A DNA stretch of 64,000 bases from the NCBI GenBank assembly GCA_963971425.1, contig OZ020522.1, forward strand, positions 1,710,168 to 1,774,167. The letters run 5' to 3'. The position numbers and the translations under genes are program-made. The stretch is from Bryoerythrophyllum caledonicum (Eukaryota > Streptophyta > Bryopsida > Pottiales > Pottiaceae). Of this stretch, positions 3,039-62,959 are shown piece by piece; position 1 is the first letter of the stretch; each line of letters begins with the position of its first letter. A model generated the notes under the pieces. That model saw nothing but the letters and a program-made list of their open reading frames with translations. It had not been told where the DNA came from and made no database searches.

Positions 3039-5030
3039 GGCTTCGTAAACGAGGTCTTCCAAGGACCATTGACTTAGGCTCTTCAGTCGCATAATTTATC
3101 ATCATCACCGTCGTCATCCTAATACAAGATCAGCTAATCAACTGGCGGAGGTCCTTGTCCTGGATTACCTTCACACGCCAAGGAGACTCGGCAAGGAAGG
3201 CCTCGTGTACGAGGTCTCTTGGTACATGCTGTAAACTGATACTGCTTATCGACATGAGGTGCCGCCATGCTGTAAACAATACCGCGTGATGAGGTAGGCC
3301 ATGTCACAAAGGAGCATATCGGGATCCCACCGACAACGAGTCAATATTACATTCCATTTCCACGAACATGAACTTCTATCCACACTGAACTTCAATTCGC
3401 AGGCGTCACATGAACTTGAAGGTATGCGAGGGAGGCCTCACAAACGAGACCATCAGGTATTATTTAATTCTGGTCCTTGCATGCATGCGATGTCATGATT
3501 CTCTGAAGCTCACACTAAGCCACTTGCATGAATGCAATGTAAGTGGATAAGGGTTTGGTCTTGCTTTTCGTGGCTTAGGAATTGGTTTCTCGCTTTTCGT
3601 GGCTATGGAATCAGCTTCAGAAAATCATGACATCGACAGCTTCAGAAATCATCATCGACATTCGACATTTGACAGCTTCAGAAGTCATGATTCTCTGAAG
3701 CTGTCGAAATGATTTTCTCTTTGTTGACTTGCATGCATGATTCTCGTTGAAAAAATCAACTTTTTGAAAATCATGACATCGACGAAGAGAATCATGACAT
3801 CAACGAAGAGACTCATGCATGCAAGTGACTTAGGGTTTGGTCTCTGAAACTGATTGTGACTTGCGAACAATTCTGTTCCGGATACGGCAGTCTTGTTCTA
3901 CTATCCGCAGTACATACAATGATTTTAAGGACGTACATGATCGTCTATTCGCAGTAAATAAAAGGGACGCACATGAACTTGAAAGCTGGCGAGGTAGGCC
4001 TCGCATACGAGGCTTGCAATTATATTTTTATTTCGGTCCTTCACTGCTGAAGGCTGTAGTAAAGGTTAGCTAATTACGAGCAAAAGGCTGATAAAGGCTG
4101 GTAAAGGCGAGCTAAAGGCTGTGGTAGCCACCAGCGAGCTCACCGTTGTGGTAGGCCTCGCATACGAGGCTTGCAGCTTCATTTTATTTACGGTCCTAAA
4201 CTGCATCGACGTGTTAATGCTCACCGTCGCACTATAGTCAACATCGAGCTTAAAGCAGTGGTAGTCACCAACGAGCTCACCGTTGTGGTAGGCCTCGCAT
4301 ACGAGGCTTGAGGTTATGTTTTTATTTCGGTCCTTCACTACTAAAGGTTGTGGTATAGGCTAGCTAAAGGCAAGCTAAAGGCTGGTAAAGGCGAGCTAAA
4401 GGCTGTGAATGTCACCAGCGAGCTCACCCCTGTGGTAGGCCTCGCATACGAGGCTTGCAATTTTATTATTTCTTCGCTCCTACACTGCCATGACAAGTTC
4501 ATGCTCGCCGTCCCACTAAAGTCATGAGCGACCTAAACGGGATCCCTATATGGACAAATGCATGAACTAGAATGCACATGAACTCAAAAGCTGGTAAGGG
4601 AGGCCTCGCATACGAGGCCTCTAGGTCTATATTGTTTCTGATTCTACACCAATGCAACGTCTAAATGCCCGTTGTCACACTCAAGTTGTCACGAGGAGAT
4701 CCATAACAATATGAAGCTTAGCGCGAATCCACCTACGACAAGACCACTAAATAATTCATCAACACCAACATTAACTGCACTGCCCTCTCTGCCCTCTTAA
4801 CCCAGATATATGCTAAAGGAAACTGAGGATGGTGGCCTCGCATACGAGGGTTGTTTTAAAAAGTCAAAAGCGGTCCTAAATTGATGCAATGTTGACGAGG
4901 AACTTCACGAAATCTTTAAGTCGACGACTCAAATACACATTGGTGGAATATAATCCAGCAGTGCTATCTATTCTATATTCAGGTACATGCTTATGACAGC
5001 TGGCAAGGAAGGCCTCGTAAACGAGGTCTT
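3039..5030. repeat. Array of ten CCTCG/CGAGG palindromes
   Basis: Ten copies of GGCCTCGCATACGAGGCTTG or close variants start at 3039, 3199, 3434, 3997, 4154, 4291, 4438, 4602, 4834 and 5011. The core is a hairpin with arms GCCTCG/CGAGGC around a 4-base centre (CATA in the middle copies; TAAA, TGTA or ACAA in the outer ones). Spacing is 137-164 bp among 3997-4602 and larger outside. In the middle copies the flanks are also repeated (GCTAAAGGCTG, CACCAGCGAGCTCACC, TTTCGGTCCT), so this is a diverged tandem repeat with a palindromic core. It lies directly 5' of the transposase coding region at 5336-7769. Subterminal transposase-binding sites are a reasonable guess, not shown. Confidence 0.75.
3490..3835. 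repeat. Nested inverted repeats inside the array
   Basis: In the one wide gap of the palindrome array there are several copies of CGACAGCTTCAGAA and its complement TTCTCTGAAGCTGTCG (3630-3710), and inverted TGCATGCATGATTCTC / GAGACTCATGCATGCA blocks (3731-3830). These could fold into a compound stem. No coding signal. Confidence 0.55.
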
Positions 5031-5335
5031 CTAATGACTTATACTCTTGGTTCTTTCACACCTGAAAAAGTTGAACAGAGTTCTCTATATTCTTCGTAAT
5101 CTCACACGGAACTATCTCTTCTACCTATAACTATCGGTTCACTCACACTAAAATCAATAAGTCAGACACCGAAACAGGCAATGCTCACACGGTTGCTTAA
5201 GAAAAACCGGCTGATATCAAGACAAGTTTAATTGCGGACCTAAGGAACTTGATCTTCAGTAAATCTTCAATAAATCCATTTCGAAATTTTTTGCCTCCAC
5301 TTTCACTGTTGTCTTTGTAGTCACAAGCCAAGCTA

Positions 5336-7769
5336 GTGCAGGGCATGGACAAGCGTCATGATGGTCATGCATGGACTCGTACAATCACAACCCACATTAT
5401 AAATGACTTCGGTCTCTCTTTTAGAATGTCCTCATGCCTAGGTCACTTGAAGTGCATCAATGACCAATATAACTACCTTGATAGAATTCATAGACCTACT
5501 CCAACCAATGAGACAAAGTGGAAGAAGCGTCTGACAAGGTATTTGTTTTTAAAATGTCTGAAGCTGGACCCGGCAGTGGTGTCGATCTTGTCATGCGGAT
5601 GCAAACTAGCGGAGATTTAGTTGATGCTTGGCTGATGTTTGACCATGTCAAGCGTGTGAAGGGTTGGACCACAATGGCTTGTCATGTCTACGATGCTTCC
5701 TATTGTCGTGTCATGACAATAGCACTTTGTGACATGCAAGCTAATGACGTTCATGCCCAAGTTATATTTTGGAGGAACTTGAATGTCATTGCAGGGCGAC
5801 ATGGCATTTCTGAGCCCAGTTTTCAGGGATTTATGGCAGACAGTGCCCAAGCTAATTGAAATGCGGTGAGGATCATTTACAAGTCTGGCGATGCAAAGAT
5901 TCGAATGGATGACCGGGAACGTACATGCTTATTCTACTGGACGCAATCTCTTGAAAAGCACACAAAGGCGGATATTCGACCCGATCTGCAAGAGCAACAT
6001 CGTCGTCTATGTAAGCAATACAAGAATGCAAATTCTCTGGAAGACGCGCAGTCTAAATACCTTGCCATCAGATCTTGGTGGTTATCATTAGGCGCTACAA
6101 CCAAGGAAGACCTTGTTCGTCTAGACCTATGGCTTGCTTTTTGGCACTTTTGATACCACCAATGGGGTGGATTTATGGAGCTTGTAAGTGTATATTTCTT
6201 ATCTATGCAAATTTCATCTTACTTACAGATTAATTTATCTTCTTGCTTATTGTTTGATGTACTATCTTACTTATAATTTGATATGTCACCTATTCTCTAA
6301 TACCTTGTTACATGTGGCAGAATCTCAGTGAAGAAGAACTTGTGGAAATGTCCTCTTGTAACCTAGCAAAGACAATGCACAACAAATGGCTCCAACAATC
6401 GGGAAAGAGGTGAAATGATTTTTATGTAGCGACAGTGGACGACTACGTTAGAGCATTCACGCAAGTGCTTGCATACAATCAGTTCCCCAGAGGCGACAGA
6501 GTAGGCACGGGTCCAAGTAGAGACGATCTTCGTGTGCGCCTTGCCCAACGCAATGCCAAGACTACATGAGATCCAAAGAAACTCCATGCGGCCTTAGAGG
6601 TAATGCCAAGTGCTTCAGAATTTTGTACGAGAGAGCCCCATTTTGAAAGTGAAGAGGTCTTCATATCTTTGAAACAAAAGACAGACATCCCTGTTGGATC
6701 AAAGTATGACTCTCATCGCCCAGACAAGATGAGTATGTCTCGGTTGGCAAAGAAAACACGCTACGATGGAGGCAGTTCTGTTGGTCATTCACGTGACTGT
6801 GAGTCCGAACTTATAGCAGAGATTCCCCGAGCTGAAGAGACGACAACGGCCACACCAATTCCGCAACATACAAAGGTGGTCCTTGAGACGACTTGTAATG
6901 AGAAGGAGTGGCACATAGAGCGGCTTCCAAGGACTTCAACAAAAGCTTGTTTTGCACAACAAGCGATAACAAAAAAAAAATGCGTCGCCAAGATTGTCCA
7001 ATACAACAAGTCTACAACAGCTCCTACTTACATGGGAATGATGACCCATTACAAGAAGAACAAGGTGGAGCAGATGCAGTTTTTCTTTTGCAACGACGAT
7101 ATTGAATGTTGTGTGAAGGGCACAAGGCGCAAGTGGGTTGTGGCTAAACCACATGTGCCCAAGGTTTGGCCCGTCAAGCTTGGTACCAACCCTACTCAAT
7201 AAGAAGTCTGTGCTCTAGAGCATGCCGGATTTCGATTGACAGAACGCCCTTTTCTAGCACCACAAGAATTGTTCGGTGATTTTATCGGGCTTATCAATTT
7301 TGAGGAGTATCCAGCACCAGTTTTCCCTAATGATTACCCAAAGCGCAAGTTCGGGAAGAACATTCAACGCAACTCCAAGGCCTCATCTATGAAACACTCA
7401 AAGAGCTATGCGTCCGTCCTTTCAGTTAACGGTAAAGTTCAAAAGGTCACCATGCTTCCTTTTCCACGGTTGGATTCAATTATTACATTTGAATCTATCC
7501 AAGGATCCAAGACATCGTCATATCTAATCACGATTGGGCAATTTCCAAGCTGCGATTGTTTGTTTTCCAAAGATATGGAAATGAAGTCCCTAGGGAAGCG
7601 TGGTCAATGGGTAAATTGCAAACATATGTACTATATTTTTACTCAACAGTTATGTCATCTTCTTCCTGAGGTAGATCAATTTATCCACGCACCGAGTTTT
7701 ACCTACAATGAAATCAAGTGCGTGTTGGAAGTTCTTCTACCCAAGTGCCAAACTTTTGTAACGGTTTGA
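5336..7769 (+). pseudogene. MULE-like transposase with SWIM zinc finger (decayed)
   Basis: The coding frames run in order with one intron. An N-terminal Cys/His-rich segment (SSCLGHLKCIND, 5336-5517) resembles a FLYWCH-type finger. After a frameshift near 5518 comes the DDE-type catalytic part: MFDHVK, MTIALCDMQ, GFMADSAQAN, then ERTCLFYWTQSL (5518-6153). An intron at about 6183-6320 has donor CTT|GTAAGT and acceptor GGCAG. A long linker follows, and the last exon ends in a SWIM finger, CDC...NCKH (about 7550-7626), stop at 7767. MULE transposases typically pair a DDE domain with a SWIM finger, which supports the call. The frame is interrupted by TGA at 5857 (aligned Trp) and 6151 (probable former CGA), by TGA near 6412 and 6568, and by TAA at 7200. 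It cannot make a full protein. Homologues lie at 48332-48625 and 59613-60830. Confidence 0.7.
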
Positions 7770-7815
7770 CATTTGAATATACTGTATTTGTCATTGCATA
7801 TTCAATTGAAACACA

Positions 7816-8026
7816 GGGTTGTCAGGACGCTCGACGTCCGTGACGTCCAGACGTCAGGACGGAGGACGTCCTCCGGCCTATCAAGACATCCGGTGACATA
7901 ACCCGTTTTGTCAATTTACCCGGGGGTAAATAGCCGTCCGCAGTCCCGGCCGTCCGTCCATTCCGTTCGCTTGGGCGGACGGCTCGGCCGTCCATTGTTT
8001 TCCGCGGCCGACCGCACGGCCATCCG
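7816..8026. repeat. GC-rich GACGTC/CGGCCGTCC block next to gap
   Basis: Just past the transposase the base composition jumps to GC-rich. GACGTC occurs four times between 7832 and 7871, including the perfect palindrome GGAGGACGTCCTCC (7861-7874). Motifs GGCCGTCCGTCC and GGACGGCTCGGCCGTCC follow, and ACCCGGGGGT at 7918-7927 is a near palindrome. The block runs into the N gap, as expected where a foldback defeats assembly. It may be the 3' end of the MULE element or a separate repeat. Confidence 0.5.
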
Positions 8027-8226
8027 NNNNNNNNNNNNNNNNNNNNNNNNNNNNNNNNNNNNNNNNNNNNNNNNNNNNNNNNNNNNNNNNNNNNNNNNNN
8101 NNNNNNNNNNNNNNNNNNNNNNNNNNNNNNNNNNNNNNNNNNNNNNNNNNNNNNNNNNNNNNNNNNNNNNNNNNNNNNNNNNNNNNNNNNNNNNNNNNNN
8201 NNNNNNNNNNNNNNNNNNNNNNNNNN
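8027..8226. other. Assembly gap (200 N)
   Basis: Exactly 200 undetermined bases, probably a fixed-size placeholder. The first defined bases after it, GAGGCTTGTTG, match the right half of the palindrome motif of the 3.0-5.0 kb array (CGAGGCTTG); with so few bases this may be chance. Confidence 0.95.
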
Positions 8227-8620
8227 GAGGCTTGTTGTACAAAGTAATGTCATTCTGCGGTTGCTATCACAACATCAACAAAAAAATCATCTTCTTGCAT
8301 GTCAGCTGAAAAGTGGTGCTTCTATACGTATGGTTGTCATATCACTCATGATTTCTCAATCATTGTTGTGAATCTGAGGCGTAAAGTGGAGGGAGATTTG
8401 GTGATTTTAAAAAGAAGGCATTCACTGAGTCCTACAATAGAGGAGCAACAACACAGGATAACCCATTTCACCATTGTTGGATGTCTAATAATAGTGGATT
8501 CAATGAGGAGGATTCACAAAGTGATTGGTAAGAAAGTTAGCAATCAAGGCATGTATTTAGAGAGGCTGGTTTGTTTGGCATTTGTGTAACACAAGAAGCC
8601 AAAGTCTTTAGTAGATAAAA
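8227..8620. other. Unassigned sequence after gap
   Basis: Short open frames exist (8299-8589), but they show no motif and no homology to other parts of the window. I see nothing I can name. Confidence 0.4.
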
Positions 8621-9203
8621 GGGCCGCTTGACAGTATGCCCAAGTCAAGTGACCGTCCGTCAAAATGAGTGGCCAAACTATGGCGAGAGGCCAAACTTTT
8701 TTGCCAAAAAAATACATTAAATAATATAGATTGAAGGTTTGGCCGGTCGTGGTGTGAAGCCCCTAAGGCCAAGTCCAAAGTCCAAACCCCATATCATTGC
8801 GCCAAAAAATAACCAGCCAAAAAAAAATCAGCCAATCAAAATCAGCCAATCAAAATCAACCAAAAAAAATTAGCCAAAAAAAATCAGCCAAAAAAAATCA
8901 GCCAAAAAATTCGATCTGTCTCATCTAACGGTTTAGATCTTGTCAATTTTTGATTAATTTAATAAAAAAAATCGACGGACTCTCGATTGTAGTTTGGATC
9001 GACTAAAATGGGCGACCCAAGTTTTGCTCGAGAGGCCGTTGCTTTGGCGTCAAAACAACCCAAAAGTGTTGCCATGTAGGACAACGGCCTTTGGAGTTTG
9101 GGCACAAGTGTGAAGGCCCAAAGTCTAGACTTTGGCCATTCTAGCAATCTCATTGGTGGAAATCGACGGCCACTCGACTTGGCCACCAAGTGTGAAGCGG
9201 CCC
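8621..9203 (+). mobile_element. Tourist-like TIR element, copy A
   Basis: Begins GGGCCGCTTGACA and ends TGTGAAGCGGCCC, so the termini are inverted. It is followed by TAA, with AAA on the left, a likely decayed TAA duplication. GGGCC ends and TAA target sites are typical of Tourist/PIF-Harbinger MITEs. The interior holds several AATCAGCCAAAAAA blocks (8815-8910). It matches the element at 42422-42923 along its length. Confidence 0.75.
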
Positions 9204-10420
9204 TAAGGTAAGCCCCCCTAAAACCAACAAGTTAAGGAATGTGCATATATTTGGAGTGGAGATAATTATACTATGATTTTTCAATGATAGCCAATAGAAT
9301 TACAATTCCAACTCAAGTGATTTCATATTTTTTCAATGAAAACTAAATTAGTTATGAGTTTTCAAACTGTGCAGCTATGTTTAGTGGGTGGCCAGCAGTG
9401 TGTACCCCCATAACCAACGACCAAAAGTAAGGGTCTTGACTAATAGCAAACCTCCATTTGGAGCTCACTTGGTGGTAATGGGATGGAAGAAGGTTGGATA
9501 TACCCCAATTTTATAGGCATTGGCTATGGGTTTTTGTTGCTTATGGGGAGGCTTATCTTATATCTACGCAAGACATGAATTTGTTAGAAATGATCAACAT
9601 TGGACTTATATTAGAGTTTTCATGACAGTAAAGGATTATTCACCACAAATCTTAGGGTCTTATGTTAGTAAGTGTGACCACATGCACATGGTGACTTGGC
9701 TTGGGAAAGGTGTGGGGGAACCACCAGTCAACCTTTTGGGAACTTGGGGTACTACAGGGGGAGCTTTAGCTTGCATGGGGTAGAACCAAAGAGCATTGAT
9801 TGTTGTGCATCTCATTGGTGCAGAAAAATGGAGTATGAAGATTTGGACGTCTATTCTTGTGAATAAAAAAGTTTCGTCCTGTCTGGGACCATATTCCTAT
9901 TGCCTTTCCTCTTTGGGGTGCACTTTCAGGAAAATTCTAATCATTGAAAACATATATCTACTAGTGATAATACAAAGATTCACAGGTATTGCTTCGATAG
10001 AAGACCCTAGTGTTAAGTAAAAGATGGACAAGTTGGTATATCTCAATATCTCACAAACTGATAGTAAACTTTGAATTTTCACCTATGCACGTTTGTTCCC
10101 CAAATAATTGTGCTCCTACTGTAGAATTTTCATAGAACTGGGATATTTTGGTCAAGCTACCGTTTGTACCATGATATAATGCTTTCAAAGGTGGCCCCTA
10201 GTGCCCGTGCAATGAAAGAGAATGTTCAACCTCAGTGCATGATTGCTGCAATTTGTCCTATTGAAAGTGGAATTCTGACAACATAAGACATAGTGTGCAC
10301 AAAGGCAATGTTGCTATGTTTGTACACATGGGTAGTGGGCCATTGGTTTTGATGCTAAAGTTCCATGGCAAGCTTGCCCTTTAGCCTCTTGTATACTTTG
10401 TTCCACAAAAAAATTCCAAC
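9204..10420. other. Unassigned stretch with a weak ORF
   Basis: A + strand frame of 87 codons (9520-9783) and another of 74 codons (9796-10020) are open, but neither shows a motif, a splice context or a homologue in the window. I treat the stretch as noncoding or unrecognised repeat. Confidence 0.35.
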
Positions 10421-15200: not shown

Positions 15201-16960
15201 AAACACAACAAAAACCCGCCTCACTATACCACCCACCCTCCCCACATATTGTGACTATACCCCTCTAAAATCCAAACCCGCATATAGCTACAACATAGGT
15301 GGTTCCTTCAAAGAACCCACAGAAGCAAGTCTCGGGCATTGACAAAAAGAAAAGCTAGATATGGCATACACAACTCAATCAAAGCTAAAAAAATCTTTAA
15401 AAGGTAACATGGACTTCAAAATATCCTCAAAGAAGAAATGATGGCCCTCCATAAAACCCTCCAAAATATCACTAGACAATATATTGATGAACCTGCACAC
15501 ATCTTTACAGATTGTAGGAACGTGTTGTATCTATTAAGCACACAAATAACACACCCTACCCTCCACTATAGGCACCTTGACCAAGCCATCCCAGCATCCA
15601 TGGTTCAAATGCTTTAAAATCGCACACAAATGACAACCCTCCATAAAGTTAAAGCACATGTCAATATTGAAAGAAACGAACAAGCGGATAAACTAGCCAA
15701 AGATGGACTTGGTAATCCCATAAAAATGCCAAACACCCGTGTGAACAAGCCCACGCTACCCCATACTACCTCCAAAGAGAAAGTTGGTCTTCTATGAAAG
15801 ACACCCTGGACAAAGGCCCATTAGATTTTTGGATAAATATCTCAAAAAACAAGATGTAATTAACAACCTTGATTTAATCTCAAAAAGGCTCCCCTACATT
15901 CACAAATGGACCGGTAACAACAACATTGATAATGAACTCTCTACAAATTTTTGGAAAAATTCCACAATTACAGACTTGCAAAAAACATGCCTTATCAAAT
16001 TCCGCACTGGACAATACATGAGCAATGTCCGCAAAAAATTCTTCTTTGGAATAGAACGATTTCCGTTCATAACATGCCAAACATGCACCTTCATGGACCC
16101 GGACACATGGCTACACGTACTCCTCAAATGCCAAAGCCATCACATACACTCCCTAATCATCAAAAGACACAATAAAGTGGTATGGGAAATCCAAAAACTA
16201 ATAATATCCTCAAAGAATTCCCAATCCTTCGTACTTATGAGCGTCAAGAATAATCCACAAGAAAACATTGTCCCGCCATAGCTACTTCCATGGACATGTA
16301 GAACCCAAAGATGTCATTGTAATGCTAGACATACTATGCGTCAAAGGACTACCAAATAAAGACCCCAACCAGACCACATAAACACAAACCATACTATCCA
16401 ATTTATCAAATTCAAATACTATAATGATAGATTTTCCCTAGAAGCAATTGAAAACAAAATCAATAAATATCAACTACTTATTAATGACATTGCAGCCCTT
16501 GGATGGTAAGTTGACCCCTTTATTGTCATCGCCGCTAAAGCTAGAACTACTACCTTTATCTCCTCTATGAAAAGTCTCGAAAAAACATTCAATATTCCCA
16601 TTAATCCAATTAAAAAGGCATTCACAAAAATTAACATCATTGCTATCCAACATGCGATGTCCATACTCCTATACAAATGAAAAATTGAAAATAACCAACC
16701 TCTCCTAGAATTAAATATACCTCTTAAAAACATCCTTTAAACACACACTTAACCTTACAAATGAGCTCTTGGAATTAAGGTGTGTGGCTATGGTTGGTCC
16801 TTGGTTTTTGGTTTTTGGTTACATAGTGTCTATCCCCAGAGGGAGGAGTAGTTCTATACAACTAAGCCTATGTCTAGTGGACATGGATTTAGTGGTGGAA
16901 CAAAGAGACACTTTATTCACTCTAGCCCTTCTTTGGGGACCAAAGTTGTTGTTCATCTTC
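12236..16960 (+). mobile_element. 5'-truncated non-LTR retrotransposon (LINE)
   Basis: Bounded by a target-site duplication, TTGATGAAATATTG (12222-12235) and TTGATAAAATATTG (16961-16974). It begins inside the reverse transcriptase at FANDLAAIAG (motif C, normally xADD; the first Asp is Asn here). The frame then continues, with many stops and shifts, through the RT thumb region to an RNase H domain (about 15490-15700: HIFTDCRNVLYLL, then KVKAHVNIERNEQADKLAKDG with its His and Asp). A Cys/His finger-like segment (15784-16281: TCQTC...HVLLKC...RHNKVV) and a further C-terminal domain to about 16740 follow. A 220-bp 3' UTR ends the element. The coding strand is strikingly C-rich and G-poor. Inactive: 5'-truncated, disrupted and split by a TIR element. 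The same family recurs at 40640-41825. Confidence 0.8.
12463..13006. mobile_element. 544-bp TIR element inserted in the LINE
   Basis: Starts AGGTAGAGGCACCCAATTCC and ends as its inverse, with GGAATTGGGTGCTTCTACCT. It is flanked by TA on both sides (12461-12462, 13007-13008). The LINE frame resumes after it (YVYLGTNLVPSL). A TA duplication would fit a mariner/Stowaway-type MITE, but with only 2 bp the superfamily is not settled. No coding capacity. Confidence 0.7.
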
Positions 16961-40639: not shown

Positions 40640-41825
40640 AGCTCTAATTCGATGGGGGATTTTGTGTCTCTAGGATAACTTGATTGTTATCTTTTTGTCT
40701 TTTTATGAAGGAGGTTGGCATCACATAATATATGGCAATATTGTTGATGTTTTTAAAGGAGTGACAGATAGTGGAGATGGGTATTTTAAATCTGTCTTTG
40801 AGTTCTCTCATTGGTCGTATGTGTGTTGTGGCTCTGGCTCTAGCGGTGATAATGATGATGGGGTCTATTTTCCAACCTAGGTCTTTTATGCTACTTATGA
40901 GTGGTATGTATTTGTTGGTTCTGTTAGTGATAGTTTGAGCCGAGAATCTATCATAACAAAACTATGCAAATTCGATGAATTGGATGGTTAGATTGGGGTG
41001 GATTGTGTTTGGAAGGGTGGCTATGTATTTTAGGCCTCACACCCATAATATATTTGGTTTAAATCTGACATTGCAGTGGCATCTTTGTGTGTCGCATGTG
41101 CAAGGAAGTAGCCAACTTGGAACTGTGTTTTCTTGTGGATTAGTGTGGAATGTTCTAGCTTTCATGAGCGTGTAACATCATGATTTACTCCAAGAGATAA
41201 GTAATTTTCTCATTTCTCATACGACTTTATTATGCCGTTTGGTAATTAATGTATGTATGTGTGGTTGTTGACATTTTATGAGGACGTGGAGCGGGGTATC
41301 CGGATCCTTTGACTCGGAGATTGGGCATGTGATGTTGGGAAACCTTTCAAATCCAAAAAATAATTGTTTGCAGGCATTGCCAATGTATTGGCATGTTTGG
41401 AATTTGATCAAACAAGTTATTTGGATGTATGTGATGTTGGGGCACTTCCAAAAACCTGTAGTTAGTATCGTGTCAATGTTTGGGTTGTTGAGCCATTTTT
41501 CTATGTTCAGAAATTGGGAGGCTATTATTTCTAGATTATTAATCCAGTCGTGCTTTTGTAGATGTTTGTTTAGAAATCTTATAGGGCCTTTTTCCGGTGT
41601 AGCTCCCATATTTTGCAATTCACCTCTATGGTAGTAGTAAGGTGTGGGGTGAGCATGTTCGTGAGGTTTCGAGGCTATTTCATACTGTGATTTGATGCTT
41701 CCGTCTTTGGCTAATTTGTTTGCTACTTCATTGCCTTGGATGTTGACATGGGCTCTGACTTTAGAAGGGTGGTGTTTTGAGCTCTTTGTGATAGAAGGTT
41801 AACTATTGAGGATATGATAGTTTGG
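40640..41825 (-). mobile_element. 5'-truncated LINE, second copy
   Basis: On the minus strand it begins within RNase H (KVRAHVNIQGNEVANKLAKDG, about 41770-41700). It continues through GPIRFLNKHLQKHDWINN and the finger-like GFERFPNITCPIS...HVLIKC...RHNKVV (41618-41217) to the C-terminal domain (LGWKIDPIIIITARARATTH, about 40900-40840), ending near 40640. Each part aligns with the LINE at 12236-16960. Several stops make it inactive. Its expected 3' tail is not contiguous; the tail at 40335-40440 has the opposite orientation. Confidence 0.75.
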
Positions 41826-42923: not shown

Positions 42924-42926
42924 TAA

Positions 42927-48331: not shown

Positions 48332-48625
48332 CTAAATTTTTACTCTACAATTCTCAATAGTAACATTCAATTTTTTTAAATTTTTTTTAGAGAGTTCATT
48401 GCGTTTCATGTTTTCCATGGGCTTGTCTTTGTCGCCGTTGTCGTAAACTCGACGAATTGCGTGCCAGTTCGCCCCTGCACTGTCCGCCATGAAGCCCTTG
48501 AAGTTCGTCGCCTTCAGTCCATGGTTCTTCATTGTATCATTCAAATTCTCACAGAACAGCTGCTGTGCGTCGGCATCCTCGGAGTGCATATCGCACATGG
48601 CAATTGTCATGGGGTGGTCGCACAC
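48332..48625 (-). pseudogene. MULE-like transposase fragment, second copy
   Basis: A 97-codon minus frame aligned with the transposase at 5700-5880: MTIAMCDMHSEDADAQQLF, then NFKGFMADSAGANWHAIRRV. The Trp after the GFMADSAGAN motif is intact here, showing that the TGA at 5857 in the other copy replaced a Trp codon. It stops shortly after the motif and is cut at the 5' side near 48625, so only the core of the catalytic domain remains. GC-rich compared with its surroundings. Confidence 0.7.
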
Positions 48626-50436: not shown

Positions 50437-50444
50437 TTGATTTT

Positions 50445-51358: not shown

Positions 51359-51445
51359 ATCATGCAAGTGTGACGTGGTATAGAGGTGTATCTCAAAGGC
51401 TTATCTGACAAGAATCCTTTTTGTCAACTTTTCGCACGAACTTAG

Positions 51446-51991: not shown

Positions 51992-52259
51992 CTAGTTTGT
52001 GCTTTATCTCATAGTGCAATTTACACAGGGATTGCAAGATGGAAGAACCTTTAGTGCCTTTCAAGTTCATTTCAATGCACCGTCCAAGACAGGAAGCTTT
52101 GATCAAAATTTGCATTTCGCAAATTGCAAAGTGGGTAAGTCCTATTTTGTACTATATTTCTCTGTTGGTGGATTCCTGTTGTCTTCCTTGTATTGGAAAG
52201 AAACACTATTAGAGTATTTGTAGAAAGCTAGGCAATTGTTTTAAAAAAATTGTATTGAT

Positions 52260-53045
52260 TACAGCTAGTTCTCTCTATTTTGTACAAAAAGTACCTTTGT
52301 GTATAGGGTATTTACTACGTGTTCTATGGCAGGAGTATACCTGAAGATTCTATTACTTCAAGACTGTACGTTCTCGAAAATAGTACCGTGGTAAGTTGAT
52401 CTTCTTTGTATCTTTGTATCTACAACATTGGTTAGAAGTGTTTGTATATGGTGAAAACAAGTGGAACATATACAAACTGGGGTCATGGTATGTTTGTAAT
52501 CGATGTGATTATACTATTTGGATTGTTTGTTGCAGTTCGTAATTATTGTACTGTGGAAACCAAGTAGAATACATACAAATTGGGTTGTTTAAGGGTTAGT
52601 ACTGGAAGTCAACATTATTCTTTGAATCGTTTGTACTAATTGCAATGTTTGTACTTGTCTTTGTCGAGTGATAAACTTTTCGTACTTGAAATTATTTTTT
52701 GTTCGTACTGTTTGTAATGAAGAAACCAAGTAGAACGCATACAAATTGGGGTGTTTAAGGATTAGTACTGGAAGTCAACTTTAATCTTTGAATCGTTTGT
52801 ACTAATTGCAATGTTTGTATTTGTCTTTGTCGAGTGATAAACTTTTTGTACTTGAAGTTATTTTTTGTTCATATTGTTTGTACCAATTGTAATTATTGTA
52901 TTGTGTTCCTACGTGTTGAAAAGAATTGCGTATTGTTTCATATTTAGGACATCGATTTTGACTATTTGTACTTTATTTGCCATAGTTTGTACTAGTTTCT
53001 ACTAATTTCTACTAGTGCGTACTAATTTGTACTTGTTTGTAATGA
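52260..53045. repeat. TTTGTAC-rich block with 167-bp tandem repeat
   Basis: About ten TTTGTAC or TTTGTACTAATTG phrases, nearly all in this orientation. Within it a 167-bp unit (52561-52727) is repeated directly (52728 to about 52890). The shared phrases are TTGAATCGTTTGTACTAATT and TTGTCGAGTGATAAACTTTT. It mirrors the GTACAAA block at 54830-55575. Confidence 0.7.
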
Positions 53046-53232
53046 TAAATATACTGAGATCTTGTTGCTTCTTCTATAATGTGATAGTTTGCTCTACAAT
53101 TGGTCTAGGTTTAGTGAAATCTTTTTAATGGTTGGCAATGAACTAGATAGTTCATATGTAGCGGTACATAAACAATTGAAACTATTGACTAATTGTTGGT
53201 AGGTCGATACCTAGGTGAAAGAAACTTGAATT

Positions 53233-53517
53233 TTGGGAGAACTAACTTCCACATTTTTGCGCACTAACTTCCATTTATTCATCACTAGGTTTTGTGTGCA
53301 CATCTTCTGGACATGTTTGTTTGCTGATTATTCTCTTTCTTGCCTTGTAGAGGGCGGTCACCCCACTAGTCATGACACATGGATGGTTCAAAAGTATCCC
53401 GATTGTGATGAGCGCATGCACATGGCTGCGCTGTTATGGGAAGATTCTTTTGTAACATGGGTATTAGAGCTTGACAATCTTGATTCAAATGAGGGAATGA
53501 TAGTTTCTATAATATAA
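53233..53517 (+). CDS. Hypothetical coding segment, possibly a last exon
   Basis: The second half, after a possible acceptor (TTGCCTTGTAG near 53350), reads GHPTSHDTWMVQKYPDCDER, then MHMAALLWEDSFVTW, and stops at 53515. Composition is protein-like. Family unknown. Confidence 0.3.
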   Translation: MGELTSTFLRTNFHLFITRFCVHIFWTCLFADYSLSCLVEGGHPTSHDTWMVQKYPDCDERMHMAALLWEDSFVTWVLELDNLDSNEGMIVSII

Positions 53518-54829
53518 TCTAATTCTTTGTGATACTAATCCTTTTGTATTGAAAGAAGTCTTACAAATGTAACTATGGATACTCTAAGTTACATGTTTGA
53601 ATAGTTGGCAATAAAGTATGTATGTATTTAAGTTTCCAAATTTCCATTGAGACAAGCTCAGAGGTTTAAGTAATTTTTATAGTTCACAAACATCCTACCT
53701 TTCTGTGTATATTTTATACGTTCAGTATCAACTCCATACAATGTGTACAACATGTCATAGTACAAATAATACCCATATTCTAATTAGAATTGCATAAAAA
53801 GATTATAAAAACTACATGATTATCAAATTCCCTAATTTTTGGTAAAGTCAAATAAAATAGAAATTGTTGAATTGTTTTTAAGGTCTAATAAAATAGAAAT
53901 TGCAGGATTGTTTCTTTGGTCCAATGGAAATGAAGCTACATATTATGGAATTTGATCTTCCATGAAAATTTGTAGAATTATTTCACTGAAAATTGGAAAT
54001 ATCAACTACAAGTTCAATGGCTCAATCGTCAATTATTGTGTCCTGGTAGTGAGTGCTACGACACTTACAATGAAAAGGAAATACAACATCTATCTCGTTA
54101 ACCTCTAATCTATCAAAGCAACAACCGTAATCTCAAGTCAATTCCTCCCTAGCCAGAATATTAAGCCAGAATATTGACTCGTACGAAGGCCACGTGGTAT
54201 AATCGCATGTCAATGTTGTCAATTTTAAGTGGGACATCAATAAGATTTGCGTCTTCACATCTGTGGAAAATACAGATACAGACAAATTTAGAACTAAAAC
54301 CAAACTAAAAATCATAGTTTTGCAAAAAAAATATCAAAGACAATCATCTATGTTCATATTGGGGTTTGTAGGAAATACCTATGGTTCAAAGACCTTGTGG
54401 CATTGGAGATTTTGTGGCGTCAATGCGAAATGTAACATTGTCCGGATTCTCTTCTTTTTTTCAACCGGCATTAAGCATCATAGTGTATGCCTCTGACTTC
54501 CTTAGTCTTTTGGAGGCCCTACGATGCATCAACTCAACATCTGCCACAATCTCCCCTATATTTGCAAACACAAAACTCCCCTAACGAATACAATTCGAAG
54601 ATTCCCTCTGCTTCTTCTTCGGATCTTTTATTCTTGTCTCCCTTTCCTTGATCAATGTACACCTTTGTCTCTTTTTTCCCCTTAGCCCCAGCACATCCAC
54701 AAGCTCTTCAATATCATAAGGGTTAGGATCCAACGCGACGACAAAGTGCAAAACTAAATTAATTCAAAACTAGATAACATTCAAATCCAAACCCATATGA
54801 ACTCCGTTGGTAATACGGATTGCAAGATA
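53518..54829. other. Intergenic, nothing recognised
   Basis: Short frames only; no motif. Confidence 0.35.
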
Positions 54830-55575
54830 GTACAAATCAGTACTAATCTATACAACTTAGTACAAATAAGTATAATTTAGTACAATTTAGTAAAATTTAG
54901 AACAATTTTGTACAATTTTGTACAATTAAGTAACAATTTTGTACAATCAAGTAACAAAGTAAGTACAACTTATCCAAATAATACAAACATTTAGAGCTCT
55001 AAATACCATAAGTCCAAACCATATAAGAAACATACAAATCTATCTAAGTTTCAGTATGAACATAATAAACCAATGTACAACTATAATTGTAAGTCCTAGA
55101 GATACTTAGTTATGAAATTAATAGGTACAAACTAACATACAAATATACAAATGTTTGGAGCTTTGAGTACCATAAGTACAAACCATATAAGAAACATACA
55201 AATCCATATGAATTTAAGTACAAACAGAATAAACCAATGTACAACTATAATTGTAAGTCTTAGAGATACTTAGTTATGAAATTAACTAGTACAAACTAGC
55301 ATACAAATATACAAACGTTTAGACCTTCTAGTACCATAAGTAAAAACCAAACAACAAAACATACAAATCCATCTGAATACAAGTACAAACGGGAGAAACC
55401 AATGTACACCTAAAGTTGTAAGTCTAAGAGGTACTCGGAATGGAGAGCATACAAATACAAACTAGCACATAGAAATACAAACTAGCACATAGAAATACAA
55501 ATGGTTAGAGTTCCCTATACCATAAGTCTAAACCAAATAACAAACATACAAATCCATCTGAATACAAACACAATT
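54830..55575. repeat. GTACAAA-rich block with 164-bp tandem repeat
   Basis: About ten AGTACAAA-type phrases, in the inverse orientation to the block at 52260-53045. From 54983 a 164-bp unit repeats at 55147, 55311 and, partly, 55497. Shared phrases are ACATACAAATCCATCTGAAT, AACCAATGTACAACTATAAT and ACTTAGTTATGAAATTAA. Confidence 0.75.
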
Positions 55576-55668
55576 AATTTCAAACAAATAATAGGACTAG
55601 AACAGAAAATTGTAACCATCACAAAAATATACAACCATTCACCGGTGAGGGCAGGAATGCTAGAATGT

Positions 55669-55722
55669 AAGCAGTGAGCAATGAGTAGTGAGCGGTGAGC
55701 GGTGAGCAGTGAGCAGTAAGCA
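55669..55722. repeat. 7-bp tandem repeat GTGAGCR
   Basis: Seven or so units of GTGAGCA/GTGAGCG in a row, some with one substitution. Confidence 0.75.
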
Positions 55723-56311: not shown

Positions 56312-56702
56312 GGGCTCCTCGAAACCGAGGAGCGCCCTAAAGGCGAAACCAAAAAAAACGGCTCGGAAAAAAAAAAAAAAAAAAAACACCTAGTAAGGGC
56401 CTCCTCGGTGATGAAGAGCACCCTGAGGGCGAAACAAAAAAAAACAAAAAAAAAAAAAACCACCTACCTAGAGGCTCCTCGGTACCGAGGAACGCCCTGA
56501 GGGCAAAACCAAAAAACAAAAAAACAAAAAAAAACCATCTACCGAGGGGCTCCTCGGTACCGAGGAGTGCCTTGAGGGATGGATGAATGTGGATGAAAGT
56601 GGTCGAACGACTCTAATGGATTGACAAAAAAAACCAGTAATAATTATGAATGACACAAGACAAACATCATAAGATTAGAGGCTTCGCAGTACCAAAGAGC
56701 CT
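56312..56702. repeat. Array of CTCCTCGGTACCGAGGAG palindromes
   Basis: Copies at 56315, 56401 (decayed), 56475, 56550 (perfect 18-bp palindrome) and about 56682 (decayed). Spacing is 86, 74, 75 and about 132 bp. Each is followed by GCCCTGAGGGCGAAACC and an A-rich tract of up to about 21 A. The arms CCTCG/CGAGG are the same as in the 3.0-5.0 kb array but the centre is GTAC. Confidence 0.8.
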
Positions 56703-56768
56703 TTGTGAACCTAATCGAAAAAACTTAAGTGATTAGGGTAAAAAATAACAGAACGAATAAAAAATAGC

Positions 56769-57371
56769 TCACCATATATAATGAAGTAGTACAATAAAGT
56801 CATTTACAATTGTGTTTTCAAAAGCATTACAAACCTTTTTATTCCTTGAACTCTTAATATGATTCAAATCTCTACGAAGTTTGTCCTCTGTCCTCTGATA
56901 CCATCCGAGGACTTCATTTGGTAGCAACTGCGATTTTGGCGGAATCAGATTTGTCAAACTTGGGAGGTTCTGTGCTGCGAGGACTAGATCTTAAAGTCCA
57001 AGATCTTCGGATATAGATTCACTTCCAATGTTTCGCAACTGCACACTGTCTTCAGTGATGTTTGTGGCAGAGTCTACACGCTCTCCCACACTGCCCACCC
57101 TAGGACGTTTGTGGTGATCCGTGTTGTAGGCTTCTTTTGCCAAAATCAGGTGGATGCATTCCCGCACAGAGTTCAATCTTTCAAAGTCTCTGTCGATCAT
57201 GCAGCACTCCTCTACATCCCAAAACTGAAATGAACCTAACCGCTTGAAGAGATTCACATCTTGCAGTTGTTCTCTTAAATTGGACAGTGATGTGTTTCCT
57301 CCTATATCCATGGAACTGAGCACTTTCGGTGGATCTCCTGGACGTTCTCGGAAATATATCTTGACCTTCAT
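56769..57371 (-). pseudogene. Unrecognised plant-type gene start, probably broken
   Basis: The first coding exon starts at 57371 (MKVKIYFRERPGDPPKVLSS) and runs 126 codons to a TAA at 56991. A second frame shifted by the break continues (SQLLPNEVLGWYQRTEDKLR, then NHIKSSRNKK) to a possible donor GTTTGT at about 56825. Upstream lie a plausible 5' UTR intron (donor AACGTG|GTGAGT near 57683, acceptor AAATGCAG near 57395) and two AAACCCTAG telo-box motifs (about 57540, 57655) common in plant 5' leaders. Family not recognised. The stop may be real or a frameshift; an element-encoded gene is possible because the palindrome array at 56.3 kb lies just downstream. Confidence 0.45.
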
Positions 57372-57689
57372 GGCGCGTGATCTCGAAGAGCCTGCATTTA
57401 TGCATAGGAAACAATCAATGAAAATTGCTCCACTTCAAACATCTACGGCCCTGCTGAAGTCATTGGATTCCTCGAACAGGGATTTGTAAACCCAACGGAT
57501 TTGAGAACCCTAGAGCCTAACAAGCTTGTATCCCCCCTAAACCCTAGAATCCTAAATCCAAGTAAAACCTCCAAAGAAAATTCAAAGCCAGATCTTTCCT
57601 TAGATCCTCCACGAAACAGAGATTGCAATTTCTACTCCAAATCAAATGAATCCTAAACCCTAGAGGATATACTGGAACTCACCACGTTC

Positions 57690-59600
57690 ACCAACAAGAA
57701 AAACGAATTGTGAACCGTGTTGTAGTCTTCCGGAGAAATAAAAAAGATAATGCTAGTAATATCCTCCAAAGGGGACCAAGCTATTTTGCGTGCCTAATTT
57801 TGCGAGCCGCGAGTTGCGAGCCTAGGGTCGCGAGCTTCGTTGGCAAAAATTGAGTTCTTAATTTGGAAAAGGCATTAAAAAGTAAAAGTTTTAAGGTTTT
57901 TTTTAGAATGACATTGGTTAAATGCATTAAATTAATGGACCTATTACCGTGGATTAGGGTGGAAAATTTGTATGTAGGAAGGATCTAAAAAATGACAATA
58001 TTGTTGATTTTCTTTTTAAAAAAGGGACTTATGACCGTGGAGTCTAGGGTTCTATAATGAAGGGAAGATAGGATTTCTAAGGTTATAAAGCTTTCGAGCA
58101 TGATTTAGGATATAAAAAGGGAGAGTAAGAGGGGAAGAGAGGAGTGAGAGAGGAAGGAGTGGTGGAGAGGAAGGTTTCAGAATTTGGAGTGGTAGTGATT
58201 CTAGGAATCCGGAGACGGAAGGAAGTGGGATTGGTGCAATTTAAGGAGATGTCAAGTAGAGTATATAAGGTTTTAGAGAGGGAGCGTTGGGGACAGCGAG
58301 AGTGACACACCCAAAAATATTGATTGAATTTAGGGTACTGTAGAATAAAAGATTTAGAGTTAGAATTAGCGGCCTAGAAGGCTTGGGAGAGTCTGATAGC
58401 AAAAGGCAAGATTTGGAGATAGACGACTAAATTTGGTGGATTATGATCCAAGACATGGTAAATTTGGGAGATTTAAAATGTGTATGGGCGATAAAGCTAG
58501 TGGGACAAAGAGCAAATGATTTAGATTATTGAACTATTGGTAAAGGACAAATAGTAAGTGTTTAGAACTAAAGATAAGGGAGAAAAGTGGAGAGATATGA
58601 AGGATAGTTTGTGGACAATTGACGACCCGACAATGTAGTTTTTGGAACCGGAAAAATTAGAAAGAGTCTTGGAGAGGGACATTGGAAGAGTGAGATATTA
58701 AACTCGACTTCTATATACTTGCAAGGGAAGTGTAAATCTCCAATCTCAGTCTCCCTCTGTCACGTTATAGTCACTAAGTATAGACTCGCGAGTGATGGAC
58801 AAGAACTAGTACAAGCGGTAGAAGTGGCCCTTTTAGTCTTACCGCCTTCTATATAGAAATTAGAGTGACACTATACAACGTCAAAGTACTATAAATGACA
58901 GCTATGCACTATAGTGTTTAAATAGAAAAATCTATAAACTTTGCTTAATCATTTCCAGCAGAAACTAGATGTGTGAATGAACACAGATACCTCGAGATCT
59001 AAACCACAGACAATTTTGAAGATGTAACAGAGGTTGTAATAGTAAGCCTATGCACTCCTTTTGCCGAGTGACTTCTTAGACATCTTTGTAAACGTTGGGC
59101 AATTGCAGTTTAGAAACTTGTTGATCGTCATTAAACACCTAAAAACCTTGGATATGTTTCAAGACTAGAAAGTCACAATACAACCTAGGCTTAGAGACGA
59201 TATAATTAGAATCATGCGGATTTTCCCAATCACGAAAAGAAGATATGCGCAATTGTTATAGTGCATAGCAAATGAAGCGGACGGAATTCTTTCCAAATCT
59301 CTTTGTTGGGTGCTCTATAGGGTTGGAAAGGGCAAGATAATCATTGATATTCACGGGTATGCCTTCTCCAAAAAAACCTTTGAGGGGACAACGCCTCACA
59401 CTCAATCAGGCAGAACTCAACGTTTTTGAGGGCGAATATCTCCATCCTACTCTATTTTGATTTCATTTCAACTGGTCAGAAGTCTGGGATATGTAGCTTA
59501 GATTGAAATTACCGTTGCGGTGTGCATATAATACAACTATGAATGTTGTTGTTGCAAAAGAAGAATTACATTCTTTCCATTCTTTCCATTATCAATTTCT
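57690..59600. other. Intergenic; purine-rich tract
   Basis: 58110-58180 is almost pure A/G on the + strand (GGGAGAGTAAGAGGGGAAGA and following). Otherwise nothing recognised. Confidence 0.45.
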
Positions 59601-59612
59601 TGAGATTGTCTA

Positions 59613-60830
59613 TTAGCCCCGTGTATGTTGAGGCAGATGTACTTCTTCCATGCTGTAGAATCCTGCCCACATATTACTTCCTTGTACCGACCTATAGAGC
59701 AAAGCATGCTTTATTGGATGTCTTTGGAAGCCTTCCAGTGTGCTATAGCTTCTCATTACAGATAGTCTCATGCACAGCTTTGAGGTGCTCATTCCGGAAA
59801 TAAGTCGCAATTGAAATCGATGGAAGTACTTCAGTTGCTTCAGGAGAGCAAATGCAGTGCGGTGGCCTCTCTATAATTGTAAGGTTATCAATCATTGGAT
59901 CAATACAAAAAGCCTTTATCTTTAAGCATGAGTCCCTTATTTTGTCGAGGTGATGCTAGTCTAATTCTAATCTTGGAAAAGAAACCGTTTTTTTTCCAAA
60001 GATACAAAAACTTCCTCACCTTGTAGGATAAGATTGCCAGTACGAAACTTGTCTGTACCGAGCATATTGGCAAGTGCGGCATGTTTTCCAAAGCATTGAA
60101 TGATGCGATAAGCAATACAAAGATTGAATTTATCCTTCCCATGATCGTTGCCTAGTTTTTTTGCCTTTCAAATATTGGTAATAGACAACAATCCAGATGC
60201 ATACCTAGACCATATCATCCACAGCCGCAACATGCATATCATAATTTTTTGTTTGAGTATTGGAACCACTTGTTGTCCACCAATTCCGTCAAATATATGA
60301 CGACATCTTAACATGTTTGAACAGCTTCCGATAGATTATTTGATGACTAATTATGGTTAGTACAATGTTTGGCATGGCAAAGTGATAGAAGAACTTAGGA
60401 TACAAAATGTCACTAGTAGCGGCATAAGGTAGTATATTAGATATATATGACAACCGCCAAAAGAAAGTACCGATGTCGGCAGTGACCTCTAGCAAATGAA
60501 TAATATAGTACTAACGGTTGGATGCCCAAACCCGCTCTACTCTTAAGTAATATTGATTTTTGCATCTCGCTGCTAAATCATAATGTCGAGCATTAATTCT
60601 TTGAGATTTGGATTTGAATTGTCATTCCTAGTTGAAAGTTCATTGCATCATCTCCAGAACACTTGCTAAAATACCACATTTTAGAGTACACATCAAAAGT
60701 CACAATTGTCATCCCGGGACGGTAAATAGAATTGTACACATAGGCAGCTATAGTGGTCCAAGAATAAACACTTTTGACATGGTTAAACATCATCCGCGCA
60801 TCCTCTAAGTCATCTCTAAGTTACATAATC
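59613..60830 (-). pseudogene. MULE-like transposase remnant, third copy
   Basis: On the minus strand the order matches the element at 5.3-7.8 kb. VDLIKIM, then DDLEDARMMFNHVK and WTTIAAYVYNS...MTIVTFDVYSK (60830-60650) align with the catalytic start. An EEVF/VSLE-like segment lies near 60000. ICNEK...RLPKTSNKACFAL (about 59770-59700) aligns with CNEKEWHIERLPRTSTKACFAQ of the first copy. The catalytic GFMADSAQAN part and the SWIM finger are not found. Heavily decayed, and AT-rich compared with the copy at 48.3 kb. Confidence 0.65.
60468..60484. repeat. Isolated CCGATGTCGG palindrome
   Basis: GTACCGATGTCGGCAGT, the same core as the array at 61158-62676, lies inside the transposase remnant. Confidence 0.6.
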
Positions 60831-61944
60831 TTAATTAAATCAACCGTGATCTTAAGTTCTATCTCCGCCATCTTCAAGATCAAAAAATTATCGACTACTA
60901 TCGCTTGTCCTAGGAAATGCTTCTTCTAAAAAAATGCCCAATTATTAAAGCTTGTTAGTTTAGTAATGCCACCATTACTCCAAAACAATGCATATATCTA
61001 AAAGCGGTTATCTCATTTTAAATACTAGGGTAAGACATTTGCTTGAACTTGACCAAGACAAAGACAAGATCCTCATATGCAAGGGTCTTGTGAAGAATAC
61101 TTTTTGGCCATAAAAATAATGTCTGAGGTAATCTTTGCATACTCCAACCACTAAAGAGGTGCCGACATCGGCACCCTTTTACAAAACCTCTCTTATATTT
61201 AGAAAAAAACCTCCCAAGGGGTTGTGGACATCGGCTCTCTACAAAAGAATCCATTCTACATATGAAAAAAAAACCTTCTAAGGAAGATGCCGACATCGGC
61301 ATCAAACTAAAAGGACATTTGTATCTCTAGAAAAAAACACCTTGATATGGAATGCTGCCATCAGTACCCTCTAAAACATCTTTTCTATGTTTTGAAAAAA
61401 GAACCTTTAGGGAAGGTACAGACATTGGCACTCCATTAGAAGGCCCTTCATATTTTTCAAAAGACAACCTCCAATGGGGTTGCCGACATCGGCACTCCTT
61501 TGAAGGATCCTTCTTATGTTTAAAAACAAAACCTCCAAAGTTGATCCTATTATCAACATTCCTCTAAATAGCCCCTTCTATATTTAGAAAAGATACCCTC
61601 AAAGGTAATGCCGACATTGGCACTCGTTTGAAGGAGCCTTCTCATTTTAGAAAATCAATCTTTAGAGGAGTGTCGACAACGGCGTTCCTCTAGAGGATCC
61701 TTTATATCTTTGAAAAGGAAATGTGAGACGTCTAAGGGAGGTGCCGACATCGGCACCCCTAGGACGCCTTTACATTTTTATTGAAAGAACCTCCAAAAAG
61801 AATTTTAGACATTATCATTCCTCAAAAATACCTTTTCTATTGTTAAAAAGAGAACCTCTAAAGGTGGTGCCGACATCGGCACTCCACTAGGCACTCTTCG
61901 TTTGTTTACAATGAGAACCTCTAAAGGGAGTGCCGACATCGGCA

Positions 61945-62170
61945 CCCTCTGAAATTTACATTCGCATTCTAAAAAATTTTGAGAGAATTCTAGAATGGTA
62001 TCACACTTTATCATCTAACACTCTAACAATAAGTTATCAACGGATGAAGTCTTGGAATTTACTACTTCATCCATTGATAACTTATTCTTAGATTGTTGGA
62101 TAATGAAGTGTGAGACCATTTTGGAATTCTTTCAAACAATCTTAGAGCGTGAATTTAAAATTTAGAGGGT
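61945..62170. repeat. Foldback 1 within the array
   Basis: Near-perfect inverted repeat with arms of about 95-110 bp around a centre near 62050-62064 (TCTTGGAATTTACTA). The left arm contains ATGGTATCACACTTTATCAT and AATAAGTTATCAACGGATGA; the right arm contains their complements. Both arms end in a palindrome unit (61930 and 62169). Confidence 0.85.
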
Positions 62171-62249
62171 GCCAATATCGGCACTCCTTTTTAATAGTTC
62201 CATTTTAAAAGATTGAATAGGCCTTCTTGTAAAGTGCCGATGTTAGTGC

Positions 62250-62473
62250 CCCCTAGAATTTACATTCACGCTCTAGAAAAATTTAAGATAATTTCAAAAT
62301 GGTATCACACTTTGTCATCTAATGCTCCAAGAATAAGTTATCTTTGGATGAAGTCTTGGAATTCATTACTTCATCCGTTGATAACTTATTCTTAGAGTGT
62401 TGGATGATGAAGTGTGATACCATTTTGGAATTCCTTGAAAAATTTCTAAAGCATGAATATGAATACTAGGGGG
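62250..62473. repeat. Foldback 2 within the array
   Basis: A second copy of the same foldback: ATGGTATCACACTTTGTCAT and AATAAGTTATCTTTGGATGA on the left, complements on the right, centre near 62352-62366. It is flanked by palindrome units at 62234 and 62474. Confidence 0.85.
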
Positions 62474-62959
62474 TTGCCGATGTCGGCATCCCCTTTAGAA
62501 GATCTCATTTGAAACATAGAAAGGGCCCTCTTGTGGATTGTCAATATCGGGACTCCCTCTGGAGATTTTTTTAACAGATAGGAAGGACCATTTAGATGAG
62601 TGTCAATGTGTCCCTCCTTTAAAGATTCTCTCAAAGAATAAGGGAAGAGCGTCCTTAGGAGTGCCGATGTCGGCACCCTTTTTACAAGTATAATGATGAT
62701 GGAGAATATTGCATGATATTATATTGAATCTTATGAAATCTAATCAATCAATTACGCGATTTATTTAAATTCAAATCCTTATCAACTCAAATTTGATTCA
62801 AATATGCGCTCGCAAATGCCTTGCTGGTCTCTATTTCCTTTGTCCAAAATCAAAGGTGCAAGTATCTCTAATTGACAAAATATTGCTTGTAGTCATCTTT
62901 TCCACTAATATTGAAGGTCATGTTCATTGATCAATGGCAATTCACATGGCAATTCTCTA

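Follow-up and report, generated by a model that had tools for sequence, protein, structure and literature searches.

The window analyzed here is a 64,000-nucleotide stretch of DNA (C10:1710168-1774167) from a 437-Mb genome, and it contains three transposase pieces, several arrays of short repeated motifs, part of a larger transposon, and the relic of a second gene (Table 1). A first-pass annotation had described the three pieces as MULE-like SWIM transposase fragments of one family, each with an array of a different short palindrome on its 5' side, and had interpreted them as a transposase and binding-site system in which each lineage carries its own array. In our analysis, this observation was confirmed in part, and the interpretation is likewise partly supported.

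Table 1. Positions of the transposon-related features in the window
Feature	Position	Strand	Description
Second-gene relic, element 1	306..1081	-	three exon-like pieces, 1081-908, 837-634, and 536-306
MITE-like repeats, ~0.9 kb	1930-2865; 23.4-25.2 kb; 26.46-27.42 kb; 27.9-28.9 kb; 31.6-33.4 kb; 34.2-35.0 kb		assigned by eye
Array 1	3039..5028	+	10 palindromes of the GGCCTCG-N4-CGAGG type (GGCCTCGNNNACGAGG-type), single orientation
Transposase relic, element 1	5291..7766	+	in-frame stops; intron at ~6187-6320 by eye
Transposase fragment 2	48401..48610	-	70 aligned residues, 47% identity to element 1, E 8e-18
Array 2	52146..55389		TTTGTAC(T/A), mostly + at 52.1-53.0 kb, mostly - at 53.8-55.4 kb
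Array 4	56315..56567	+	CTCCTCGGTACCGAGGAG = CTCCTCG-N4-CGAGGAG, 3 copies, repeat period ~75 bp
Element 3	57773..64000 (window part)		transposon of ~8 kb, from the start of the left inverted repeat at 57773 to a right end at ~65730, outside the window
Transposase relic, element 3	58955..61122	-	homology to the other window pieces
Array 3	61158..62677		GTGCCGACATCGGCAC-type palindromes, 64-bp units, left half +, right half -

Transposase pieces and motif arrays in the window

The three transposase pieces are mutually homologous and do form one family. Since a Pfam scan of these pieces, together with intact N-terminal parts from other loci, returned nothing above the cut-offs, the MULE-like/SWIM label rests on a reading of the sequence by eye, in which a CxC...CxH and a DDE-like layout can be recognized, and on terminal inverted repeats and 10-bp target duplications, both determined for the element 3 family. 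A comparison of the transposase and the second gene with the PDB gave no credible match, an AF2 model of the transposase N-terminus (mean pLDDT 39.5) was too poor for use, and a search of viral and prokaryote contigs recovered no relatives of the transposase piece at 5860-6150. In element 1, the array and the catalytic exon lie closer together than they do in most related copies, and short palindromes also occur 3' of its transposase, in a GC-rich cluster (7822-8026) adjoining a 200-N gap. No N-terminal transposase piece was found upstream of fragment 2. To the left of the window, a further transposase copy (L031:1-400 and 2580-5908) is 74% identical to fragment 2 over 70 residues.

Arrays 1 and 3 proved to be real, both lying far above chance. 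Allowing up to three mismatches, the array 3 16-mer gave 19 strand matches at 12 places, compared to a mean of 0.14 in shuffled sequence; 11 of these places lie inside the array and the remaining one at 60467. The palindromic sites are conserved islands in otherwise diverged units, array 1 showing this more strongly than array 3. Among the ten units of array 1, the mean pairwise identity of the 18-bp site is 0.84, while that of the adjoining 40 bp is 0.39 and 0.43 on the two sides; leaving out three near-duplicate units, the site stands at 0.81 and the flanks at 0.41 and 0.38. For the 17 units of array 3, the corresponding values are 0.69 for the site and 0.47 and 0.44 for the flanks. Array 3 is also partly decayed, since 5 of its 17 units are palindromic in none of the aligned copies.

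Array 4 was absent from the first-pass annotation. Its palindrome, CTCCTCGGTACCGAGGAG, has 128 places in the genome, and since none of the 50 places listed has a listed transposase within 12 kb, the array belongs either to another lineage or to something else altogether. An open frame of ~127 residues (MKVKIYFRERPGDPPKV...) lies 0.4 kb from array 4, at 56990-57373 (-), and could be the first exon of a gene whose intron contains the array.

Array 2, previously called as a GTAC-centered palindrome array, had to be rejected as such: the repeated word is the oriented, non-palindromic TTTGTAC(T/A). It neighbors transposase fragment 2 (70 residues), and we found no support for the TTTGTAC arrays as the cis array of that transposase's lineage: around the related L031 copy, neither TTTGTAC nor GTACAAA occurs in 9.9 kb, 2.6 kb of which is 5' side. 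Inspected by eye, these 2.6 kb have no CG-N4-CG array and carry ~110-bp non-palindromic tandem repeats instead. Within array 2, tandem repeats of 166 bp and 164 bp, at 52.5-52.9 kb and 54.98-55.44 kb, have TTTGTAC motifs that face each other. The word is similar to a published VANC6 motif, AGTTGTAC (PMC5735166).

Other repeats and genes were noted elsewhere in the window. The ~0.9-kb repeats of Table 1 end in TTAACCCCTAAAGG / CCTTTAGGGGTTAA or similar and, judged by eye, probably form an abundant MITE-like family. An HD-Zip-like gene is present twice in inverted orientation, at 20.4-22.0 kb (-) and 43.6-45.2 kb (+), the two copies appearing nearly alike by eye. These HD-Zip-like frames, recognized by inspection, indicate a streptophyte origin of the DNA. 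Fragments at 15745-16281 (+) and 41217-41798 (-) are similar to each other and read, again by eye, like the end of a LINE.

A shared palindrome layout and its distribution among transposases

Each array had been described as consisting of a different palindrome. The half-sites do differ, but this description understates the link between them, because arrays 1, 3, and 4, as well as those that accompany intact transposases at other genomic loci, have one layout in common: half-site-CG-N4-CG-half-site, with 5-bp arms. When sites were counted as two CGs at a fixed gap with 5-bp arms and at most one arm mismatch, the window gave 17 sites at gap 4 and 0 to 4 at each other gap from 0 to 12, compared to a mean of 0.79 (maximum 5 in 300) under first-order resampling. 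All 17 sites lie inside arrays (7 in array 1, 3 in array 4, and 7 in array 3). Across 257 kb of loci, mostly chosen for array 3 and including three that touch or overlap the window, gap 4 gave 189 sites and no other gap more than 15.

The same layout was found in four lineages with intact transposase exons (L035-L038), for each of which 4.3 kb of 5' side was taken, covering 2.4-6.7 kb upstream in L036 and 0-4.3 kb in the others. These stretches contain 1, 4, 3, and 7 CG-N4-CG sites, respectively (1, 3, 2, and 6 if L036, L037, and L038 are each counted without one off-motif site), with null means of 0.07-0.19; taken by itself, the one site of L035 falls short of significance, but three further places with the same half-site lie in its element. 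The palindrome is GGCTTCGGCGCCGAAGCC in L036, GGTGCCGACAGCGGCACC in L037, GCTGCCGACATCGGCAGC in L038, and AGGCCTCG-N4-CGAGGTC, at its one site, in L035. In L038, the site identity (0.62) barely exceeds that of the flanks (0.48 and 0.58), with 2 of the 8 sites out of register.

We then related palindromes to transposases across the genome, using one exon of transposase 1 as query. This gave 2334 candidate places, 150 of which were scored and listed at 71-100% identity. In many of the listed transposases the frame runs without interruption for 730-800 residues, and there is a set of 10 copies with one identical score and another such set of 13, so the family has probably been active recently. 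Exact places number 45 for GGCCTCGCATACGAGG, 32 for GGCTTCGGCGCCGAAGCC, 83 for GGTGCCGACAGCGGCACC, and 237 for GCTGCCGACATCGGCAGC (100 listed), and AGGCCTCGNNNNCGAGGYC has 325 strand matches genome-wide (100 listed); the reversed-pattern control gave zero for each searched word, GTGCCGACATCGGCAC included.

At least 61 of the 150 listed transposases have one of the four exact palindromes (GGCCTCGCATACGAGG, GGCTTCGGCGCCGAAGCC, GCTGCCGACATCGGCAGC, and GGTGCCGACAGCGGCACC) within 12 kb, with 100 of the 237 GCTGCCGACATCGGCAGC places listed; on the same basis, 89 have none of them among the matches listed. No transposase had two of the four among the matches listed, where 8.85 overlaps were expected, and none of 20,000 random deals yielded zero overlaps, a figure that overstates the strength of the result because near-identical copies are not independent. 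On six contigs with 83 listed transposases, GGCCTCGCATACGAGG was matched to 4, GGCTTCGGCGCCGAAGCC to 11, and GCTGCCGACATCGGCAGC to at least 7, while random positions on the same contigs gave 0.035, 0.102, and 0.085, respectively. GGCCTCGCATACGAGG is tied to close relatives of the query, being found at 11 of the 14 copies with at least 85% identity and at 0 of the 136 others. The expectation that copies carry one array type and that this type tracks transposase relatedness, judged here by identity bands, is partly supported for these palindromes; it does not extend to array 2, which is of another kind.

The claim that each lineage has its own array is supported by the mutual exclusivity of the four exact palindromes but is too strong as a general statement, because two identity bands share the GGCCTCG half-site, and the GGCTT palindrome likewise turns up in two. 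On contigs C1-C3, AGGCCTCGNNNNCGAGGYC lies 5' of 1 of 2 listed transposases with at least 85% identity, 6 of 12 with 77-84%, and 0 of 31 with 71-76%, and the GGCCTCG type is missing in 6 of the 12 copies of the 77-84% band. GTGCCGACATCGGCAC, which stands outside the set of four palindromes called exclusive, shares at least two transposases with GCTGCCGACATCGGCAGC among the first 100 places of each (of 305 and 237).

The position of the arrays was similarly upheld in part. On the 5' side of the catalytic exon, the sites of the four palindromes are at distances of ~2-10 kb, with 3-6 kb the most frequent. Sites within 12 kb on the 5' side were found for 11 transposases with GGCCTCGCATACGAGG, at least 8 with GCTGCCGACATCGGCAGC, and 20 with GGCTTCGGCGCCGAAGCC (19 when each place is assigned to its nearest transposase), and among the matches listed none of these three palindromes has a 3' site within that distance. 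It is nevertheless too strong to call the position the same in all, because GGTGCCGACAGCGGCACC, with a 5' site in 19 transposases and a 3' site in 20 (22 in total), also has a site past the catalytic match, at 236-255 bp in 19 of the 20 copies and at 3452 bp in one. These 3' sites perhaps lie in the next intron.

Many palindromes also occur at places where no listed transposase is nearby, counted against the 150 of 2334 candidates that were listed: 12 of 45 for GGCCTCGCATACGAGG, 12 of 32 for GGCTTCGGCGCCGAAGCC, 33 of 83 for GGTGCCGACAGCGGCACC, 50 of the 100 listed (237 in total) for GCTGCCGACATCGGCAGC, 58 of 95 on C1-C3 for AGGCCTCGNNNNCGAGGYC, and 95 of the 100 listed (305 in total) for the array 3 word, GTGCCGACATCGGCAC.

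Element 3 and the divergent second gene

Array 3 lies within a larger transposon, element 3, which surrounds it with ends of its own; we therefore rejected the idea that the array is a stand-alone foldback element. The terminal inverted repeats of the family begin with GGACCAAGCTATTTTGCGTGCC... on the left and, as the reverse complement, GGGGATTGCTATTTTGCGTGCCC... on the right, and the window copy is flanked by the target duplication CCTCCAAAGG. Of the 14 family copies in which both ends were called, 12 are flanked by an exact direct repeat that measures 10 bp or longer, the exceptions being L014, with a direct repeat of 7 bp, and L009, for which none was resolved. Mutator-like elements (MULEs) typically generate target-site duplications of 8-11 bp, and the element 3 family, for which the ends were examined, has both a long target duplication and terminal inverted repeats.

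The array sits in the middle of the element, with ~3.4 kb between it and the left end and ~3.1 kb on the other side, and by eye the palindrome is absent from the inverted-repeat ends. GTGCCGACATCGGCAC has 305 exact places genome-wide, and we compared ~10-kb loci at 20 clusters picked by eye from the first 100 of these, and then at three more. Transposase pieces lie beside the array in all 20 clusters, which had been chosen by GTGCCGACATCGGCAC alone, and also in the three further ones. The 20 clusters match the window copy at ~80-94% identity over long stretches; the longest copies measure ~8.0 kb, with a central array, and others 6.0-7.2 kb. Since none of 14 copies scanned has an open frame of more than 137 residues, the element 3 copies look dead or non-autonomous and appear to have spread as units.

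In all four intact lineages examined, the short basic first exon of a second gene lies upstream of, and divergent from, the transposase, and the palindromes are found beyond this exon. In L037, they fall between exon 1 and the next exon, in a stretch that by eye can be read as the first intron, with its donor near 2172 and its acceptor near 3084; this copy has an in-frame stop further on. The second-gene pieces of L037 matched the relic in element 1 by tblastn at 41%, 49%, and 34% identity (E 3e-8, 1e-20, and 1e-6), with array 1 between the two relics; the order second gene, array, transposase is therefore the same in element 1. A Pfam scan of the second-gene exons, which represent part of the gene, reached no cut-off and gave no DUF1985 or DUF287 match. 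A ParB-like identity, suggested by a DGNHR read by eye, found no support from Pfam or PDB and was dropped.

Possible function of the arrays and comparison with known systems

We propose, with a probability of roughly 0.6, that the palindromes are putative targets of a DNA-binding protein that acts as a dimer and that the transposons themselves encode. Such a dimer, which might be the product of the second gene or the transposase, would read the two half-sites, and its specificity would have changed from one lineage to the next, leaving each protein to act chiefly on the copies of its own lineage. By analogy with VANC, binding along the array could keep the promoters of the element active, through either anti-silencing or activation. 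Copies with a dead transposase that have kept their array could still be recognized, and this would explain why array 3 is so abundant (305 exact places) beside broken transposases.

That the arrays are instead docking sites of the transposase for excision and insertion, like the subterminal motifs of CACTA elements, seems to us improbable, although we rank it ahead of the other alternatives. The palindromes do track transposase identity bands, and in 19 copies a GGTGCCGACAGCGGCACC site also follows the catalytic match at 236-255 bp, as docking sites might. Against this, the array of element 3 is mid-element, ~3.4 kb and ~3.1 kb from ends that by eye lack the palindrome, and in the four intact lineages the first exon of the second gene stands between the transposase and the array.

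Following it in our ranking, and also improbable, is the notion that the arrays are passive tandem-repeat expansions hitch-hiking in successful copies, their exclusivity merely reflecting descent. The units are indeed tandem, with spacings of 64 bp, about 127 bp, and 140-180 bp; close copies have their arrays in common by descent, 10 GGCTT copies having a single transposase score and 13 GGTGC copies likewise; and the palindrome is gone from parts of array 3. Yet the sites of array 1 are about twice as identical as their flanks, and repeat descent leaves unexplained how one geometry comes to be combined with different half-sites. Last in the ranking comes a structural role, in which the palindromes would fold into hairpins of RNA or DNA (as structure in intronic RNA, a small-RNA source, or a cruciform) and would not serve as protein sites. 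Symmetry is just what a hairpin requires, and one L037 palindrome has 47-bp arms around a single site, but other perfect examples have arms of only 7-11 bp, and a hairpin would need neither the exact CG-N4-CG geometry nor the conserved CGs.

If the arrays are indeed targets of a transposon-encoded dimer, they might represent an independent system of self-recognition, the second for DNA transposons, based on a dimer that the element encodes and that falls in no known protein family, a further step that we consider conceivable but on balance doubtful. Such a system would have a fixed CG-N4-CG footprint whose two CpGs methylation could switch, and its half-sites would shift between lineages to give mutually exclusive recognition groups within one superfamily and one genome. 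A parallel to the VANC systems of Arabidopsis from another plant, with palindromes of constant geometry and swappable half-sites, would show how a DNA-binding protein changes its specificity. It would also offer many natural protein-site pairs within one genome, several of them with uninterrupted transposase exons in same-score sets, and the two fixed CpGs would make methylation sensitivity directly testable.

Comparison with known systems places the arrays nearest to VANDAL/VANC. En/Spm (CACTA) elements have subterminal TnpA sites near both ends and a 3-bp target duplication. Like them, the elements described here repeat a short binding-type motif inside a DNA transposon; unlike them, element 3 carries its array mid-element, away from a subterminal position, and makes 10-bp duplications. 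Array 3 resembles foldback elements in having units of opposite orientation on its two sides, but this array is internal to a larger element with distinct terminal repeats. VANDALs are Mutator-like elements not known to have terminal inverted repeats, whereas the element 3 family has such repeats. The closest known system is that of VANDAL/VANC in Arabidopsis, to which the present arrays may be likened in working principle: anti-silencing VANC proteins act on VANDAL elements, and the VANC systems in these reports are described from Arabidopsis (Hosaka et al. 2017, PMC5735166; Sasaki et al. 2023, PMC10398659). Here too, family-specific motif arrays were found in non-coding parts of the elements. 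According to Hosaka et al. (2017, PMC5735166), VANDALs likewise carry further genes besides the transposase and dense short motifs in their non-coding parts, both within introns and ahead of the transposase gene, and these motifs vary from one related family to another and lie in tandem repeats that change fast. Since family-specific repeated binding motifs of VANDALs are already published there, the suggestion that a family with arrays of switching sequence is new could apply only to the CG-N4-CG palindrome variant, for which a literature search of limited reach found no report of such arrays. The VANC21 motif YAGTATTAY and the VANC6 motif AGTTGTCC or AGTTGTAC, as given in that paper (PMC5735166), are short and non-palindromic, whereas the motifs described here are 18-bp palindromes with a fixed CG-N4-CG that occur in both orientations in several lineages.
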